A stretch of DNA of 64,000 nucleotides from Rhodobacteraceae bacterium IMCC1909. Lineage in GTDB: Bacteria > Pseudomonadota > Alphaproteobacteria > Rhodobacterales > Rhodobacteraceae. The notes beneath the pieces were generated by a model that made no database searches, was not told where the DNA came from, and saw nothing but the letters and a program-made list of their open reading frames with translations. Made by a program: the position numbers and the translations under genes. The stretch spans positions 930,001 to 994,000 of the forward strand of contig JAPDHM010000001.1 of NCBI GenBank assembly GCA_030704425.1, written 5' to 3'. Of this stretch, positions 15,832 to 22,756 are shown piece by piece (the stretch's first letter is position 1; the number at the start of each line of letters is the position of its first letter).

Positions 15832-16746
15832 ATGGAAAACTGGGATGATCTACGCATCTTTCTGGCGGTGGCGCAATCGGGCAGCCTGACGGTTGCGGCG
15901 CAGATGTTGAAAATTGACCCAGCAACGGTCAGCCGTAGGATTGCTCGGTTGGAGCAGGCCCATGCAACGCCGCTCTTTTCAAAATCCCCGAAAGGCTACG
16001 AGCTGACGGAAGCGGGGCATGGGCTCATGGCGCATGTGGATGCCGCCCAAGCCTCTTTAAATGCGGGGCTTGGGGCGCTGCGCGGTGACGGGGAAGGGCT
16101 TAGCGGCCAGATTCGCATTGGTGCGCCGGATGGATGCGCCAATTTCCTTTTGCCGCAGGTCTGCGGACATATTACAAAAACTTATCCAGATTTAGATATT
16201 CAAATCGTGGCTTTGCCAAGGGTTTTCAACCTGACGCGGCGCGAGGCTGATATGGCGATTGGGGTGAGCCAACCCACGGCCGGGCGGCTTATGGTGCAAA
16301 AAATCGCTGACTATCGGTTGCATCTCGCGGCCTCAACGGCGCTTTGGCAAACCCACAAAAGGCCCGAGTGCCTGAGCGATCTCAAAGACCTGCCGACTGT
16401 TGGCTACGTGCAAGATATGATCTTTGACAAGGAGCTTGATTACCTTGAACCGCTCGGACTGCGGCGGGTGCAGCTGGCGTCCAATTCCATTTCCGTCCAA
16501 ATGAACCTGTTACGGCAGGGTGCAGGGCTTGGCATTGTGCATGATTTCGCCCTGCCTTTTGCCCTGGAATTACGCCGCATTTTAGTGGATCACTTGAGCC
16601 TGACGCGCAGTTTCTTTTTGATCCGGTCCACCGATGATCGCCACAATCGGCGGCTCAATCAATTCGCACAGGTATTGGTGAGCGGGTTGCGGGTGGAAAT
16701 TCAGAGGCTTGAGGCTTTGGCCGAAGAGCCGGGCGGTAAATTTTAA
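15832..16746 (+). CDS. LysR-family transcriptional regulator, probable regulator of the mmsA operon
   Basis: A 304-residue regulator with an N-terminal winged helix-turn-helix (NWDDLRIFLAVAQSGSLTVAA, then DPATVSRRIARLE) and a LysR-type effector domain. It diverges from mmsA across a short intergenic region, so control of the valine operon and of itself is the simplest reading; the effector is unknown. A TTG 21 bases upstream also opens the frame, but MENWDDLR at 15832 is the natural family start. Confidence 0.85.
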   Translation: MENWDDLRIFLAVAQSGSLTVAAQMLKIDPATVSRRIARLEQAHATPLFSKSPKGYELTEAGHGLMAHVDAAQASLNAGLGALRGDGEGLSGQIRIGAPDGCANFLLPQVCGHITKTYPDLDIQIVALPRVFNLTRREADMAIGVSQPTAGRLMVQKIADYRLHLAASTALWQTHKRPECLSDLKDLPTVGYVQDMIFDKELDYLEPLGLRRVQLASNSISVQMNLLRQGAGLGIVHDFALPFALELRRILVDHLSLTRSFFLIRSTDDRHNRRLNQFAQVLVSGLRVEIQRLEALAEEPGGKF

Positions 16747-16832
16747 ACGACTGCACCGGTTTTTTGCACCGCGCTGGCTTGCAATTCGCTCAATTTATGG
16801 CTTGTTACCAATATCAAGTCGGAGAAGTTAAA

Positions 16833-17330
16833 ATGCGCATAGGCCTTTACCCCGGAACCTTTGATCCGATTACTCTGGGACATATTGATATCATCCGACG
16901 TGGCTGCGCATTGGTGGACCGCTTGGTCATCGGGGTGGCGATCAATCGCGATAAAGGGCCGCTCTTTGATTTCGATGAGCGCGTATCGATGATTGAAGTT
17001 GAGGCGGTGCGTCTAACGGAGCAGACCGGAACTGAAATTCATGTGCACCCGTTTGAAAACCTTTTGATTGACTGCGCCCGCGACGTCGGCGCCGGGGTCA
17101 TTTTGCGCGGATTGCGCGCAGTTTCAGACTTTGAATATGAATATCAGATGGTTGGCATGAATAGGCAGTTGGATTCATCGGTTGAAACTGTCTTTTTGAT
17201 GGCCGAGGCCCAGCATCAGGCCATTGCGTCAAAACTGGTCAAAGAGATCTGTCGCTTGGATGGGGATGTGTCGAAATTCGTCACCCCGGCGGTCGAGGCG
17301 GCCTTAAAACGCCGCCTGCACCGCTCATAA
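16833..17330 (+). CDS. coaD: Phosphopantetheine adenylyltransferase
   Basis: Penultimate enzyme of coenzyme A synthesis, transferring AMP to 4'-phosphopantetheine. The 165-residue protein has the nucleotidyltransferase motif YPGTFDPITLGHIDII, RGLRAVSDFEYEYQM and a C-terminal ISS-like region near SKLVKEICRLDGDVSKFV. The ATG at 16833 follows GGAGAAG; the open frame starts 69 bases earlier without homologous sequence. It converges on the gap1 gene with a 20-base gap and no clear terminator. Confidence 0.95.
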   Translation: MRIGLYPGTFDPITLGHIDIIRRGCALVDRLVIGVAINRDKGPLFDFDERVSMIEVEAVRLTEQTGTEIHVHPFENLLIDCARDVGAGVILRGLRAVSDFEYEYQMVGMNRQLDSSVETVFLMAEAQHQAIASKLVKEICRLDGDVSKFVTPAVEAALKRRLHRS

Positions 17331-17350
17331 TTTACATGAGCTGTCTGAGG

Positions 17351-18352
17351 CTAGATTAATTTGCCCATGGCCACAGCTGTATCGGCCATACGGTTGGAAA
17401 ACGCCCATTCGTTGTCGTACCAAGACAGCACGCGCACCATATCACCGCCCATAATCAGGGTTTGATCCGCATGAAAGATCGAGGAATGCGGATCGTGGTT
17501 GAAATCAGTCGAGACCAAAGGCGCATCCACGACATCAAGCACCCCTTTGAGTGGACCGGCGGCCGCCTTCTGCATTAAAGCCAAAATTTCGGCAGCATCC
17601 GTGCTGCGTCCGGCTTCGAAGGTGAGATCCACCGCTGAGACATTTGGGGTCGGCACCCGGATGGCGACGCCGTCCAACTTGCCGTTCAGTTCTGGCAGAA
17701 CCAAGCCAACAGCTTTGGCCGCGCCCGTGGTGGTTGGGATCATCGACAGGGCAGCGGCGCGCCCCCGGTAAAGGTCTTTATGTGTGCGATCCAATGTTGG
17801 CTGGTCGCCCGTATAGCTGTGAATCGTTGTCATCAGCCCGCGTTTGATGCCGATAGATTCGTGCAAGACTTTTGCAATAGGCGCCAAGCAGTTGGTGGTG
17901 CAGGACGCATTTGAAACAATCAAGTCATCCGCGGTTAATGCCTGGTGATTGACGCCATAGACGATGGTTTTATCGGCATCTTTACCAGGTGCCGAGATCA
18001 ACACGCGGGAGGAGCCATTGTCGAGGTAGGCTTGGCAATCGGCCTTGGAGGTGAAAATACCCGTGCATTCCATCACCACATCGACATCCGACCAGGGCAG
18101 ATCCGCTGGATTGCGTATGGCCGTCACGCGCATGGGCCCTTGCCCGACATCAATAAAGTCTTCCCCATGGGTCACAGAGGCCGCGAACCGCCCGTGTACG
18201 GAATCGTATTTCAACATATGCGCATTGGTTTGCACCGGACCGAGGTCATTGATTGCGATGACCTGTAGATCTGTACGCCCTGATTCAACAATCGCGCGCA
18301 GTACATTGCGGCCAATACGGCCAAATCCGTTGATTGCAACTTTTAATGTCAT
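17351..18352 (-). CDS. gap: Glyceraldehyde-3-phosphate dehydrogenase, NAD-type (gap1)
   Basis: A 333-residue GAPDH with INGFGRIGRN at the N terminus, the catalytic cysteine in SNASCTTNCLAP, and WYDNEWAFSNRM near the end. The cofactor loop reads INDLGP with Asp36, the residue that binds the adenosine ribose and excludes NADP, so this copy looks glycolytic and NAD-dependent. It has its own promoter, TTGACT-N17-TGTTAG, whose -10 is the first half of a LacI-type operator. This suggests repression. The other GAPDH copy lies 215 bases upstream and differs at residue 36. Confidence 0.93.
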   Translation of the reverse strand: MTLKVAINGFGRIGRNVLRAIVESGRTDLQVIAINDLGPVQTNAHMLKYDSVHGRFAASVTHGEDFIDVGQGPMRVTAIRNPADLPWSDVDVVMECTGIFTSKADCQAYLDNGSSRVLISAPGKDADKTIVYGVNHQALTADDLIVSNASCTTNCLAPIAKVLHESIGIKRGLMTTIHSYTGDQPTLDRTHKDLYRGRAAALSMIPTTTGAAKAVGLVLPELNGKLDGVAIRVPTPNVSAVDLTFEAGRSTDAAEILALMQKAAAGPLKGVLDVVDAPLVSTDFNHDPHSSIFHADQTLIMGGDMVRVLSWYDNEWAFSNRMADTAVAMGKLI

Positions 18353-18372
18353 ATCCAGGTCCCACTTTCTGT

Positions 18373-18409
18373 TGATAGCGCTAACATCACAGGTCGCAGA
18401 AAAAGTCAA
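18373..18409 (-). promoter_or_regulatory. gap1 promoter with LacI-type operator over the -10
   Basis: On the minus strand, TTGACT (18409-18404) and TGTTAG (18386-18381) are 17 bases apart. The -10 is part of TGTTAGCGCTATCA (18386-18373), which matches the perfect palindrome TGTTAGCGCTAACA at 13 of 14 positions, a form typical of LacI/GalR-family operators. The start codon follows 20 bases later. Binding here would block RNA polymerase. Confidence 0.6.
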
Positions 18410-18418
18410 CCGGCGCGG

Positions 18419-18553
18419 CTACCGCCAGAAGGCAATTGTGTCGATTAAGTCTAGAAATGAGCGTGCGAGGTATAATATTGCCGCGCCTTGCGTCAAAAAT
18501 AAGTCAGCCGCAACGGCGGCAAGTGCAACATATAGGGCCAGGCGCGGGGTCAT
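18419..18553 (-). CDS. Small membrane protein (44 aa) between the two GAPDH genes
   Basis: A 44-codon frame, MTPRLALYVALAAVAADLFL at the start and ending in FLDLIDTIAFWR. It has one hydrophobic segment (about residues 4-20), a short linker with GAAILYLARSF, and an aromatic-basic tail. The ATG has GGGAGAG upstream and lies 14 bases after the stop of gap2, so it is translated from the gap2 mRNA. I recall similar short proteins ending in a LAFWR-like tail beside gap in other Rhodobacteraceae, but function is unknown. It is too short for usual ORF cut-offs and easily missed. Confidence 0.65.
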   Translation of the reverse strand: MTPRLALYVALAAVAADLFLTQGAAILYLARSFLDLIDTIAFWR

Positions 18554-18567
18554 ACTCTCTCCCACAA

Positions 18568-19569
18568 TTATTGGAGCTGCCCCATTTTAGCGGCCAAATC
18601 AGCCATACGCACGGAAAAGCCCCATTCATTATCATACCATGATAATACGCGGACCGTTGTCCCGCCAACCACTTTGGTTTGATCGGGGGCAAAAATCGAA
18701 GACTCGGGCGTGTGATTGAAATCAATCGAAACTTTAGGCGCAGGGTCATATCCCAAAATGCCTGCCATTTCGCCCTTGGCGGCCCGCTCGACCGCTGCGT
18801 TGACTTCCTCTTTTGTAACCGCGCGCGTAGCCTCAAAAGTGAGATCAACGCAAGAGACATTGGGGGTAGGGACGCGAATGGCCGTGCCGTCCAGCCGTCC
18901 TGCCATTTCCGGCAAGACCTCGCCAAGCGCCTTGGCTGCCCCGGTCGATGTGGGAATCAACGCCATGGCCGCTGCCCGGGCGCGATAGAGATCACTGTGA
19001 CGGCGATCTAGGGTCGGTTGGTCGCCGGTATAGCTGTGGATCGTGGTCATGATCCCACGTTCGATGCCAATCGCGTCGTTGAGCGCTTTGGCCAGCGGGG
19101 CAAGGCAATTGGTCGTACAAGATCCATTTGAGATCATCACATCACTAGGCAACAGCGCGGCCTCATTGGCCCCCAAAACGATGGTGCGATCCACATTTAC
19201 AGCTGGGGCTGAAATCAGGACCTTTTTGGCCCCTCGCGCAAGATGGACCTTGGCTTTATCGCCTTCGTTGAAATTGCCAGTGCATTCCAAAACAACATCA
19301 ACGCCGCTCCAGTCGAGCGTATTAGGGTCATAGGAGGAGAACATTTCAATCGGTCCGAGCCCGAGATCCAGCGTACCATCGCCAACGGTAATTTCCCCAT
19401 CGAACCGTCCATGTACGCTGTCATAGCGCATCAAATGTGCGCTGGTTTCCAGCGGGCCTGTGGCGTTGATCTTAACCACTTCCACATCTTTGCGGCCAGA
19501 GGACACGATATGTGCCAACACGCAGCGACCGATGCGGCCAAATCCATTGATGCCAATTCTTACTGTCAC
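18568..19569 (-). CDS. Glyceraldehyde-3-phosphate dehydrogenase, GapB-like / NADP-type (gap2)
   Basis: Second 333-residue GAPDH with INGFGRIGRC, catalytic SNGSCTTNCLAP and WYDNEWGFSVRM. The cofactor loop reads INATGP with Ala36 in place of the NAD-selective Asp. Loss of this Asp is the feature of gluconeogenic, NADP-preferring GapB of Bacillus (INAS in that enzyme), so a biosynthetic role is likely; enzyme direction is inference. The GTG at 19569 follows AAGGTGAG with good spacing; a GTG nine bases earlier is an alternative. It is separated from tkt by a strong terminator and has its own promoter with upstream LacI-type sites. Confidence 0.9.
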   Translation of the reverse strand: MTVRIGINGFGRIGRCVLAHIVSSGRKDVEVVKINATGPLETSAHLMRYDSVHGRFDGEITVGDGTLDLGLGPIEMFSSYDPNTLDWSGVDVVLECTGNFNEGDKAKVHLARGAKKVLISAPAVNVDRTIVLGANEAALLPSDVMISNGSCTTNCLAPLAKALNDAIGIERGIMTTIHSYTGDQPTLDRRHSDLYRARAAAMALIPTSTGAAKALGEVLPEMAGRLDGTAIRVPTPNVSCVDLTFEATRAVTKEEVNAAVERAAKGEMAGILGYDPAPKVSIDFNHTPESSIFAPDQTKVVGGTTVRVLSWYDNEWGFSVRMADLAAKMGQLQ

Positions 19570-19622
19570 AGCTCTCACCTTTTGCCAATTCCTGCCGGTG
19601 AAGTAGCAAGGTCAGAGGGGCA

Positions 19623-19698
19623 TTTAAAGTTCAAAGTAAAAGGATTTTCAACTTGTTAGCGAAAACATTTGTGTTAGCGATAACCGCTTGCGGTAACA
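19623..19698 (-). promoter_or_regulatory. gap2 promoter with upstream LacI-type operator array
   Basis: Minus-strand TTGAAA (19651-19646) and TTTAAA (19628-19623) are 17 bases apart. Directly upstream of the -35 are two copies of the operator word, read on the plus strand as TGTTAGCGAAAACA (19654-19667) and TGTTAGCGATAACC (19672-19685), each 12 of 14 to the palindrome. They are 18 bases apart centre to centre. A third inverted repeat, TAACCGC-TT-GCGGTAA (19681-19696), follows. Sites upstream of -35 fit activation rather than repression. Confidence 0.6.
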
Positions 19699-19723
19699 GG
19701 GTTTGTAACGAGATATGCCAGGC

Positions 19724-19753
19724 AAAAAGGCTGCGGTGCCACGCGCAGCCTTT
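19724..19753 (-). terminator. Rho-independent terminator after tkt
   Basis: AAAGGCTGCG (19726-19735) and CGCAGCCTTT (19744-19753) form a perfect 10-bp stem with an 8-base loop. Read on the minus strand, the stem ends in a run of T. It lies just after the tkt stop and separates tkt from the gap2 unit. Confidence 0.8.
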
Positions 19754-19760
19754 GGCTGTA

Positions 19761-21776
19761 TTAGAGCAGCGATTTGACTTTGCGCACAACCGCCTCTGCG
19801 GTGATGCCAAACTCTTTATAGAGCCGATCGGCCGGGGCCGAGGCCCCAAAGCCCGTCATGCCGACAAAACCAGCCTTGGCCTCACGTCCGCGTTCCCCCA
19901 AAAGCCATTGATCCCAACCCATGCGCACGGCCGCTTCCACGGCCACGCGCACTGCGCCGCCTGGCAAAATACGTTTGCGATAGGCGTCATCTTGTTGGGC
20001 AAAGAGCTCCATGCAGGGCATGGAAACTACGCGCGTGCCAATACCTTCGGCTTGCAGCAAGTCGCGGGCCTCTAGTGCCAGCGAGACCTCCGTGCCGGTT
20101 GCCATCAAAATCGCTTGGCGCTTGCCCTCGGCCTCGGCCAAAACATAGGCGCCGCGCGCGCTGAGGTTTGACGACTTATATTCATGACGCACCGCTGGCA
20201 CGCCCTGACGTGAAAGCGCCATGACGGTTGGTGTGCTTGGTTGGCTCAACGCCACTTCCCAAGCTTCCGCTGTCTCTGTAATGTCGGCTGGGCGGAAAAC
20301 CAAAGTGTTGGGCGTGGCGCGGGAAATGGCCAAATGCTCGACCGGTTGATGTGTGGGACCATCTTCGCCAAGGCCAATAGAATCATGCGTCATGACATAG
20401 ACAGTTGGAACGCCCATCAAAGCCGAGAGGCGCATGGCGCCGCGGGCGTAATCGGTGAAGCACATAAACGTGCCGCCGTAGGGGCGAACCCCGCCATGCA
20501 GTGCCAGACCGTTCATTGCAGCGGCCATGCCATGCTCGCGGATCCCATAGTAAATGTAGCGACCTGCGCGATTTTCGGGATCAAAAATCCCCATATCCGC
20601 AGTTTTTGTATTGTTAGACCCGGTCAAATCAGCCGAGCCGCCGACGGTTTCAGGCATCACCGGATTGACCGCCTGCAAGGTTTTTTCCGAGGCCGATCGC
20701 GTGGCCAGTTTTGGCTCTGACTCCGCGGCATCTTTCTTGATCTTGCGGATCGCAGCGGCCAATTTCTTGGGGGCTTCTCCAGCAAAGGCGCGGTTGAATT
20801 GCGCTTGCTTTGAGGCGGAAAGACCAGAAAATCGGCTGTCCCATTCGGCGCGTTCCGCGCTGCCGCGGGCGCCAATGGCCTCCCAAGCGGCTTTGACATC
20901 GGCTGGTATTTCAAATGCGCCATAGGGCCAGCCATAGGCGGCTTTGGCATCGGCCAGTTGCGCCGCATCCGTCAGCGCACCATGCCCTTTTGATGTGTCC
21001 TGTGCCGCGTGCCCCAGCGCGATATGGGTTTTACAGGCAATCATAGAGGGTTTCTTAGATTTACGCGCGGCCGTTAAGGCCTCATCGATGGCGATCGGGT
21101 CATGGCCATCAATGGCTTGCACATGCCAGCCAGAGGCTTTGAAACGCTGCAGCTGATCTGTCCGATCTGACAGCTCAACCGTACCGTCGATGGTGATGTT
21201 ATTGTCATCCCATAGCACCACTAAATGTCCCAGCTCATGGCGGCCGGCAAGTCCGATGGCCTCTTGGCTGACCCCTTCCATCAAGCAACCGTCCCCGGCG
21301 ATGACATAGGTGTTGTGGTTCTGAATTTTTTTGCCGTAGGTGGCACGCAATATTTCTTCGGCGATGGCGAAGCCAACCGAATTGGCAATCCCCTGTCCCA
21401 GTGGGCCAGTCGTGGTTTCAATGCCCGAAGCGTGGCCATATTCTGGATGCCCGGCGGTTTTTGCACCCCATTGGCGGAAGTTTTTGATCTCATCGAGCGT
21501 CATATCCGCATATCCGGTCAGGTGGAGCAGGGCGTAGAGCAACATCGATCCATGCCCCGCCGAAAGAATGAAGCGATCGCGATCTGGCCAAATGGGCGCC
21601 GCGGCGTCAAATTTCATGTGCTTTTCGAACAGAACGGTGGCCACATCGGCCATGCCCATCGCCATCCCTGAATGACCCGAATTTGCGGCCGCAACCGCAT
21701 CCAGCGTCAAAGCACGAATGGCGGCGGCTTTTTTCCAATGTTCAGGGTTCTTGACGGCGAGTGCTTTGAGATCCAC
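19761..21776 (-). CDS. tkt: Transketolase
   Basis: Thiamine-diphosphate enzyme of the pentose phosphate pathway, moving two-carbon units between sugar phosphates. The protein is 671 residues from a GTG at 21776 ([14 protein letters not shown], matching the usual family start); an upstream TTG at 21800 is also in frame. Motifs include [16 protein letters not shown], the ThDP/Mg motif [13 protein letters not shown] followed by [10 protein letters not shown], and [19 protein letters not shown]. It is followed by a strong terminator, so it is not obligatorily co-transcribed with the GAPDH genes downstream. Confidence 0.95.
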
Positions 21777-21888
21777 GGAGCTAACTTTCTGTAAGGGCAA
21801 ACGTTGTTGCTTCCTATCAAGTGAAGAGGGAATATCAAGTAACCTGACCCATTTCTTAAAAAATGTTTCATGCGCCGGCTCTTGGACG

Positions 21889-21904
21889 TTAAGGTTAATT
21901 TAAC
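21889..21904 (+). promoter_or_regulatory. CtrA-type box upstream of zauP-zapA
   Basis: TTAA-GGTTAAT-TTAAC matches the CtrA consensus TTAA-N7-TTAAC exactly. It overlaps a 15-bp palindrome, AGGTTAATTTAACCT (21892-21906). The zauP start is 71 bases downstream. A CcrM methylation motif (GATTC, 21927-21931) lies between. tkt diverges 113 bases away, but a cell-division target is the more natural one. Confidence 0.5.
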
Positions 21905-21975
21905 CTACCTTAGAGGTGGTCTATGCGATTCGAGACAGCTGATGGTGGCGTTTGAGCAGGGGTGTGAGATGAGCA

Positions 21976-22359
21976 ATGAGTGATATTTCGGTTTTAGAAC
22001 AAAAAATTACAGTGGCTATACGACGCATATCTGCGGCGACTGAGGCCGTGCCTCTCAACCGTGCCGCACCGACGTCAGCGCCAGTTGAGCCTGCGGCGCC
22101 TGAAAATGTTCATAATGACGCTCTCGGCGCTCTTGACGCGCAATTGTCACAAGTGATGCAATCCAACGCGCAACTGCGGGCGTCAAATCAAGCGCTGCGC
22201 GCGGCCAATGCCGAAGGCCTGGGGGATGCAAGTCTGATTAATGCTGGGATGCAGGCTCAGATTGATGCATTGACCGCAGAACGGGCCGCAGAGGCTGCGC
22301 AGCTTGAGCTGTTACTGACGGCTTTGACCCAAACCGATGAGGAGCCGCGCGATGCCTGA
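21976..22359 (+). CDS. zauP: ZauP-like coiled-coil protein (ZapA-upstream protein)
   Basis: A 127-residue, Ala/Gln/Leu-rich acidic protein with predicted long helices: residues 1-20 (SDISVLEQKITVAIRRI) and 48-120, with heptad-like spacing through LDAQLSQVMQSNAQL and QAQIDALTAERAAEAAQLE; a Pro/Ala-rich linker lies between. It overlaps zapA by eight bases. In Caulobacter the coiled-coil protein encoded immediately upstream of zapA, ZauP, works with ZapA to focus the Z-ring, and the layout here is the same. Identification rests on position and architecture rather than on a strong sequence motif. Confidence 0.65.
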   Translation: MSDISVLEQKITVAIRRISAATEAVPLNRAAPTSAPVEPAAPENVHNDALGALDAQLSQVMQSNAQLRASNQALRAANAEGLGDASLINAGMQAQIDALTAERAAEAAQLELLLTALTQTDEEPRDA

Positions 22360-22756
22360 AGTCACCATCAAAATTGGCCAACGCCCCTATTCAGTCAACT
22401 GCCCAGCAGGTGAGGAGCCCCAGCTGCAAATGGCCCGGGCCGCGTTGGATGCCGAGGCCAGCACCCTTCTGGCCCACGTGGGGCGCGTGCCAGAAGCTCA
22501 GATGTTGTTAATGTCCGGTCTGATGCTTGCAGATCGCACATTGGCATTGGAGGAAAAGTTAAAGGCGGCAGAGGCCGCTCTTGCGCAAGCAAAGACGGCG
22601 GCCCATGATATTTCTCCAGAAATCAAAACAGTCGTCACAGAAATTGAAGTGCCCGTTGTGCCGCCTGCCTTATTGGAGAGCCTCGCAGAATTAGCCGCGC
22701 GCGCGGAAGCTGCGGCAGATGATCTGGAAGAGAGAATAGCCCAATCCGCTGGCTAG
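22352..22756 (+). CDS. zapA: Cell division protein ZapA
   Basis: ZapA binds FtsZ and cross-links protofilaments at the division site. The 134-residue protein starts with the globular ZapA head, MPEVTIKIGQRPYSVNCPAG, followed by RVPEAQMLLMSGLMLADRTL and a coiled-coil tail rich in Glu and Ala. The ATG at 22352 overlaps the stop of zauP by eight bases, pointing to translational coupling. It converges on grxD across 60 bases. Confidence 0.88.
   Translation: MPEVTIKIGQRPYSVNCPAGEEPQLQMARAALDAEASTLLAHVGRVPEAQMLLMSGLMLADRTLALEEKLKAAEAALAQAKTAAHDISPEIKTVVTEIEVPVVPPALLESLAELAARAEAAADDLEERIAQSAG

Follow-up and report, generated by a model that had tools for sequence, protein, structure and literature searches.

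The gap locus and its promoter layout

The 64-kb stretch of DNA analyzed here (the window; C1:930001-994000 of the 3.27-Mb genome of Rhodobacteraceae bacterium IMCC1909) carries two genes for type I glyceraldehyde-3-phosphate dehydrogenase (GAPDH), gap1 and gap2, with similar operators at both promoters. Gap1 (17351-18352, minus strand; 411 bits on NCBIfam TIGR01534, cut-off 367) has an aspartate at residue 36 of its cofactor loop (Asp36, INDLGP), and Gap2 (18568-19569, minus strand) has an alanine there (Ala36, INATGP) and LDRRH in its second cofactor loop. The open reading frames (ORFs) confirm these coordinates and the two residues at position 36, which an initial annotation of the window had given, and three TGTTAGCG-type palindromes lie at the positions it had claimed. 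The placement of these palindromes, and what it suggests about control of the two isozymes, is the subject of this report.

The gap1 operator, TGATAGCGCTAACA (18373-18386; 13/14 to TGTTAGCGCTAACA), lies 20 bp before the start codon. In the reading direction of the gene, the six leading bases of the operator occupy the expected position of the -10 box, 17 bp on from a -35 element, TTGACT (18404-18409, minus strand). At gap2, the proximal operator, TGTTAGCGAAAACA (19654-19667; 12/14), is instead found 84 bp before the start codon and 2 bp upstream of a -35-like TTGAAA (19646-19651, minus strand). The distal operator, TGTTAGCGATAACC (19672-19685; 12/14), is 18 bp from the proximal one, and a possible third, weak site (10/14) spans 19685-19698. 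A weak -10-like TTTAAA is present at 19623-19628 (minus strand). These promoter elements were read by eye, and the annotated arrangement, with one operator over the gap1 -10 and the others upstream of the gap2 -35, is backed by family consensus (TTGACC-N17-ATGTTAGCG at gap1, n=30; TTT at consensus positions 39-41 of gap2). A generic promoter scan listed neither gap promoter. When up to two mismatches are allowed, the three gap operators are the only matches in the window, where 0.10 would be expected, and three matches per window were reached in 0/100 shuffles.

The layout recurs in a family sample of 120 genomes from 119 genera, cited below by number where needed. A site of at least 11/14 lies within 200 bp of 70/76 gap2-type genes, including 69 of the 70 in the main clade, whose line (70.5% identity) was drawn after the site scores had been seen. 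Among gap1 genes adjoining gap2, 30/32 have a site of at least 12/14. Controls scored at 11/14 or better in 200 bp gave 0/571 coding windows and 16/3000 Markov sequences. The motif is thus present in relatives, where its absence would have told against the initial annotation. Among named loci, which may overlap the family genomes, such a site (at least 11/14) occurs at 35/36 Ala36 genes (all but L232), at 21/21 Asp36 genes sharing a stretch with an Ala36 gene, and at 3/43 other Asp36 genes, in six of whose genomes gap2 was looked for elsewhere; one more (L283) comes without upstream sequence. L238, from a Ruegeria sp., is a named locus that contains the gap1 and gap2 genes together with the operators of each type.

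In the consensus of the 30 gap2-adjacent gap1 promoters, TTGACC is followed after 17 bp by ATGTTAGCGcTAACA, so that the operator replaces the -10 box. The 69 main-clade gap2 promoters show the proximal site, about 2 bp, and then a weak -35-like stretch. In a fixed stretch preceding the site, a match of at least 4/6 to TTGACA is found at 35/53 gap1 genes versus 7/70 gap2 genes. The opposite placement of operators relative to promoters, proposed for the single locus, is thus seen across the family. The spacing of the gap2 sites is also regular. Among 68 family gap2 genes with two or more sites, each of at least 10/14, the proximal-to-next distance is 18-20 bp in 39 and 29-31 bp in 19; rarer values are 13-14 bp (4 genes), 36 bp (1), 40-42 bp (2) and 52-53 bp (3). 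A period of 11 bp describes these spacings (R=0.93, n=64, with the four at 13-14 bp left out) and those of the named loci (R=0.92, n=32), by a statistic that ignores kinship, and points to two dimers on one helix face.

Operator, partner gene and candidate regulator

The genome contains ten LacI-type matches. The candidate regulator among them, P0003 (G000:C2:805632-806660), is encoded away from the gap locus and resembles GntR, its best NCBIfam model (283 bits, below the cut-off of 400). Among the matches listed, P0003 is matched at E 1e-100 or better (at least 58% identity) in 102/120 family genomes, only weakly in 5/120 and not at 1e-40 in 13/120; four Paracoccus and two Rhodobacter genomes match it at 66-71% identity. 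Of 30 fetched orthologues, 27 share its recognition stretch exactly, and 12 of the 30 carry a site (at least 11/14) upstream of their own gene. Another LacI-family protein might bind the gap sites instead, for example L018 at C1:283954 (helix-turn-helix GTITVSRVLR). The ten matches in the genome, the similar recognition stretch of L018, and the many motif copies in G090, which has no P0003 hit among the matches listed, would suit this alternative. It is nonetheless most improbable, given the near-constant recognition stretch of so widespread a protein, the sites that its orthologues carry upstream of their own genes, and the finding of a gap1 site in 0/10 Asp36-only genomes without a P0003 hit.

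Several further observations concern LacI-type regulators and the motif. G090 holds seven forward near-perfect motif copies (at most one mismatch), with none in the reversed control, and a different regulator may act through these copies in that genome. The closest solved structure to P0003, 3kjx_A (568 bits), is labelled merely as a LacI-family regulator and is a close relative of this probable CceR/GapR. Contig G000:C6 (L017) carries an E. coli-type lacI (PRK09526, 617 bits) with an ORF resembling phage lambda terminase next to it, and may be a contaminant in the assembly. In G110 (L182, G110:C44:34300-39500), a 51% P0003 paralogue and an Asp36 gap gene, with a best site of 10/14, are arranged divergently; the two are possibly a private regulator-target pair, in a layout that recalls the Roseobacter arrangement reported in the text of Ravcheev 2014 (PMC4052901).

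The gap1 operator tracks the presence of gap2. In genomes with the regulator, a gap1 site of at least 11/14 is found in 49/53 that have gap2 and 5/28 that do not (Fisher p 1e-11, a value that ignores kinship), and in Asp36-only genomes with weak regulator hits only it is found in 1/5. This count covers 113/120 genomes (G012, G029, G033, G060, G068, G095 and G103, which contributed no GAPDH stretch, were left out) and takes the best gap1 copy per genome, which favors multi-copy genomes. A pair test on all 104 Asp36 genes, with a separate 104-row FastTree tree, gave eight well-supported independent pairs, about 5.8 for versus 0.1 against the association (median p 0.03, range 0.016-0.375). Four named Paracoccus genomes have the regulator at 66-68% identity; their best GAPDH matches are at 61-63%, none of gap2-like identity, and the fetched gap genes have Asp36 and no site over 11/14. 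In a P. denitrificans cceR deletion, glycolytic enzymes are reported to go up, gluconeogenic enzymes to go down and PckA to be lowered. In keeping with the Paracoccus gap genes, no GAPDH is named there, the main text, figures and tables aside, containing neither gap nor GAPDH nor glyceraldehyde, which is weak evidence. A lone GAPDH would have to run in both directions, and its repression during gluconeogenesis would be harmful; a second, activated enzyme would let the first be shut off. Such a constraint would account for an operator that follows its partner.

GapR and CceR are, we presume, the same protein, by way of RSP_1663, and Imam 2015 is the primary CceR paper. According to the text of PMC4052901, GapR (RSP_1663) occurs in all 13 Rhodobacteraceae studied, and its predicted regulon includes gapA, gapB, zwf, edd-eda, pykA and pckA, with a 20-bp palindrome as operator motif. 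CceR is described as sensing 6-phosphogluconate in the text of two further papers (PMC5507952; PMC4419725). The system described here shares with the GapR regulon targets, a palindromic operator and the presence of a LacI-type regulator in the family; P0003 is the candidate, is presumably CceR/GapR and would bind the gap sites. The initial annotation had called for a regulator of a CceR/PckR group. A CceR/GapR-type candidate is present, as P0003; the grouping itself was rejected, because the text of PMC4052901 calls GapR and PckR non-orthologous, with different motifs, and PckR therefore belongs apart. PckR of Rhizobiales does resemble the system proposed here, in that dual control of genes for central carbon metabolism is predicted from where its sites lie, and in enterobacteria the single LacI-family protein FruR/Cra represses glycolytic and activates gluconeogenic genes (PMC4052901, in its text). 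FruR/Cra belongs to another regulator group and has other targets and another effector. Because gapA and gapB were already predicted there as members of the GapR regulon, the link between regulator and gap genes is not new. The section text of that paper gives no sign of control or promoter geometry for gapA and gapB, no spacing rule and no operator-partner link; it is the conserved site layout that is described here. No statement of opposite control of two gap genes was found in the literature searched, which left figures and many subscription papers outside, and no priority is claimed.

The motif also marks other genes of central carbon metabolism. In the window's own genome, matches with at most two mismatches occur at 10 places, seven of them at six promoters: gap1, gap2 (two), edd, zwf, glpX and pyk, genes whose identities pass NCBIfam cut-offs. 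Of the others, two (L003, L006) fall within called ORFs and one (L010) at the end of an ORF. At pckA, an 11/14 site (three mismatches) lies about 78 bp before the likely start. The sites that the initial annotation suggested looking for at edd, zwf and pckA are thus present, and palindromes accompany Entner-Doudoroff, glycolytic and gluconeogenic genes alike, as in the CceR/GapR regulon. Site position differs between the genes expected to be repressed and those expected to be activated. Distances to the start codon, counted by eye except at the gap genes, are short at gap1 (20 bp), edd (18 bp), zwf (17 bp) and pyk (16 bp), and long at gap2 (84 and 102 bp), pckA and glpX (59 bp). Genome-wide motif counts were dropped as evidence, the reversed control being commoner in this genome; the evidence for the sites is position and conservation, not number.

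LacI-family proteins mostly repress, and both sets of sites might do so: the gap1 site would cover the -10 box, and the gap2 sites would act upstream, perhaps through a DNA loop that joins them. There would then be no reciprocal switch. Two helically phased gap2 sites would suit cooperative repression too, and gapB is listed among glycolytic genes in the text of PMC4052901. However, the proximal site lies upstream of a weak -35-like stretch in 69 gap2 promoters, its long distance from the start codon is that seen at the gluconeogenic genes pckA and glpX, and PckA is reported as lowered, not raised, in the P. denitrificans deletion; repression at both genes is accordingly judged quite unlikely.

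The isozymes and the sequence between them

The GAPDH sets used here consist of the matches listed, low-identity GAPDH copies falling outside the sample. Each of the 111 gap2-type proteins whose residue 36 can be read, among them that of the window, has Ala36 together with Arg-Arg-His in the second loop. Asp36 is found in 169 gap1-type proteins, 123 of these with LDTMH; the exceptions are one Ala (G001) and one protein too short to read. Residue 36 changes once on a 186-protein FastTree tree in which 79 of the 183 inner branches have support below 80. By sequence, then, the isozymes are not alike, and the difference that the initial annotation drew from this locus extends family-wide and to both cofactor loops. 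The equivalents in B. stearothermophilus GAPDH, Asp32 and Leu187-Pro188, are known to be determinants of the use of nicotinamide adenine dinucleotide (NAD), and the second loop of GAPDH contacts the cofactor of the neighboring subunit. Because Gap2 has lost the aspartate and gained two arginines, its use of the phosphorylated cofactor, NADP(H), is likely, and its role would be gluconeogenic; Gap1 is predicted to be NAD-dependent and glycolytic. The pair recalls GapA and GapB of B. subtilis, where two GAPDHs also differ by Asp or non-Asp in the cofactor loop and are under opposite control in glycolysis and gluconeogenesis. There, however, the regulators are different, whereas here one regulator would serve both genes from one locus, and the Arg-Arg of the second loop further sets the Rhodobacteraceae Gap2 apart.

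Profile scores say less about the role of Gap2. It has lost the cofactor-loop aspartate, as expected of GapB-type enzymes, and scores 392 bits on NF005830 (PRK07729), a model that presumably stands for GapB, against a cut-off of 546. The one assignment that it receives is type I GAPDH (388.7 bits, cut-off 367.2). With the general GAPDH-I model alone passing its cut-off, NCBIfam was dropped as an arbiter between GapA, GapB and erythrose-4-phosphate dehydrogenase. In G009, an Ala36 Gap2 (G009:C3:1469584-1470576) is the only GAPDH-like gene at 1e-40 among the matches listed, with two 11/14 sites upstream.

The upstream neighbor of gap2 is a transketolase gene, tkt (19761-21800, minus strand; TIGR00232 773 bits, cut-off 682; start codon called mechanically), and tkt falls within the fetched stretch (1.5-kb flanks) at 29/70 main-clade gap2 loci. 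The transketolase reaction involves erythrose 4-phosphate, and Gap2 scores 327 bits on the erythrose-4-phosphate dehydrogenase model TIGR01532. Gap2 might accordingly act mainly as that dehydrogenase, or in some other biosynthetic side reaction linked to transketolase, with control unrelated to gluconeogenesis. This role is very unlikely: the model's cut-off is 530.55 bits and Gap1 outscores Gap2 on it (380 bits), Gap2 is the one GAPDH-like gene listed for G009, and rhizobial and other Asp36 gap genes adjoin tkt too.

Between the two gap genes lies a 44-amino-acid microORF (18419-18553, minus strand) with a single hydrophobic stretch and FWR at its end. It begins 14 bp past the stop codon of gap2 and stops a little short of the gap1 promoter, a position from which it would be co-made with gap2. 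A like ORF of 44-47 amino acids adjoins a gap gene in 84/113 family genomes, lying downstream of 54/76 Ala36 genes and upstream of 52/104 Asp36 genes. A profile built from 71 of these ORFs retrieves 127 across the loci, by construction including the 71 themselves. Entropy by codon position is 1.19, 0.91 and 1.51; the third position varies most, which resembles real coding sequence. For the microORF, nothing was found in Pfam up to E 0.1 or in NCBIfam up to E 1, a hand-written consensus gave weak hits only, all under cut-offs, and no match to the microprotein was found in plasmid records. The family is possibly a new microprotein family. Terminator-like hits in a generic scan were at shuffled level (4 found versus 3.3 expected), so that a terminator between gap2 and gap1 is neither shown nor excluded, and Rfam gave nothing at gathering scores in positions 16000-22500.

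A more speculative reading joins these elements, and it is rather unlikely. Here gap2, the membrane-type microORF and gap1 would form one conserved module, in which the microprotein, made from the gap2 message, would be an unrecognized partner of the switch under gluconeogenesis. The gap1 operator would block its promoter and, when bound, would act as a roadblock that stops read-through from gap2. A lone two-way GAPDH could not keep the operator, which would explain within this reading why the operator comes and goes with gap2.

Probable reciprocal control of the gap pair

Site positions, the operator-partner link and the cofactor residues together make reciprocal control of gap1 and gap2 likely. 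The locus is very probably one instance of the CceR/GapR regulon, with P0003 switching gap1 off and gap2 on. When a sugar-derived effector is low, P0003 would bind the palindromes. On the gap1 -10 box it would block transcription of the Asp36 glycolytic GAPDH; at gap2, usually as two units on one helix face just upstream of the weak -35, it would aid RNA polymerase. The Ala36/Arg-Arg enzyme, probably NADPH-using, would then be made for gluconeogenesis. As the effector rises (6-phosphogluconate, according to the text of papers citing CceR), the regulator would leave and the gap pair would flip. We infer the sign of control, the effector, the cofactor preference and the direction of flux. The initial proposal of one CceR-like protein as a reciprocal switch is thus supported, with sign, binding and cofactor preference as its predicted parts, and none of the contrary outcomes it had named came true.

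Several points weigh against a reciprocal switch by P0003. The gap2 -35 and -10 are weak, and activation at gap2 is predicted from site position. Neither Gap1 nor Gap2 passes the GapB-type NCBIfam cut-off, and since G009 has Gap2 alone, Gap2 need not be purely gluconeogenic. Motif counts show no enrichment genome-wide, either for TGTTAGCGNTAACA at one mismatch (4 forward versus 7 reversed-control matches) or for TGTTAGCGCTAACA at three mismatches (82 versus 210). That the printed GapR motif equals the 14-mer is presumed from shared targets, and no like site was found upstream of the P0003 gene itself in the window's genome. The association also has exceptions. G046, G088, G110 and G112 have both genes but no gap1 site, G109 has gap2 without sites, five genomes with the regulator have a gap1 site without gap2, and only 1/6 of the lower-identity Ala36 copies have a site. 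Among the matches listed, neither G044, whose gap2 has an 11/14 site, nor G090, with its many motif copies, has a P0003 hit at 1e-40.

GAPDH catalyzes a reversible step that sugar breakdown and sugar synthesis have in common. In this bacterial family the step appears to be divided between two genes and driven in opposite directions by one protein, through one motif, by site position alone. The Rhodobacteraceae gap pairs would be a good system in which to study how a LacI-family protein activates, and across about a hundred genera they offer a testable rule, that a glycolytic gap gene retains its repressor site mainly where it has a gluconeogenic partner.

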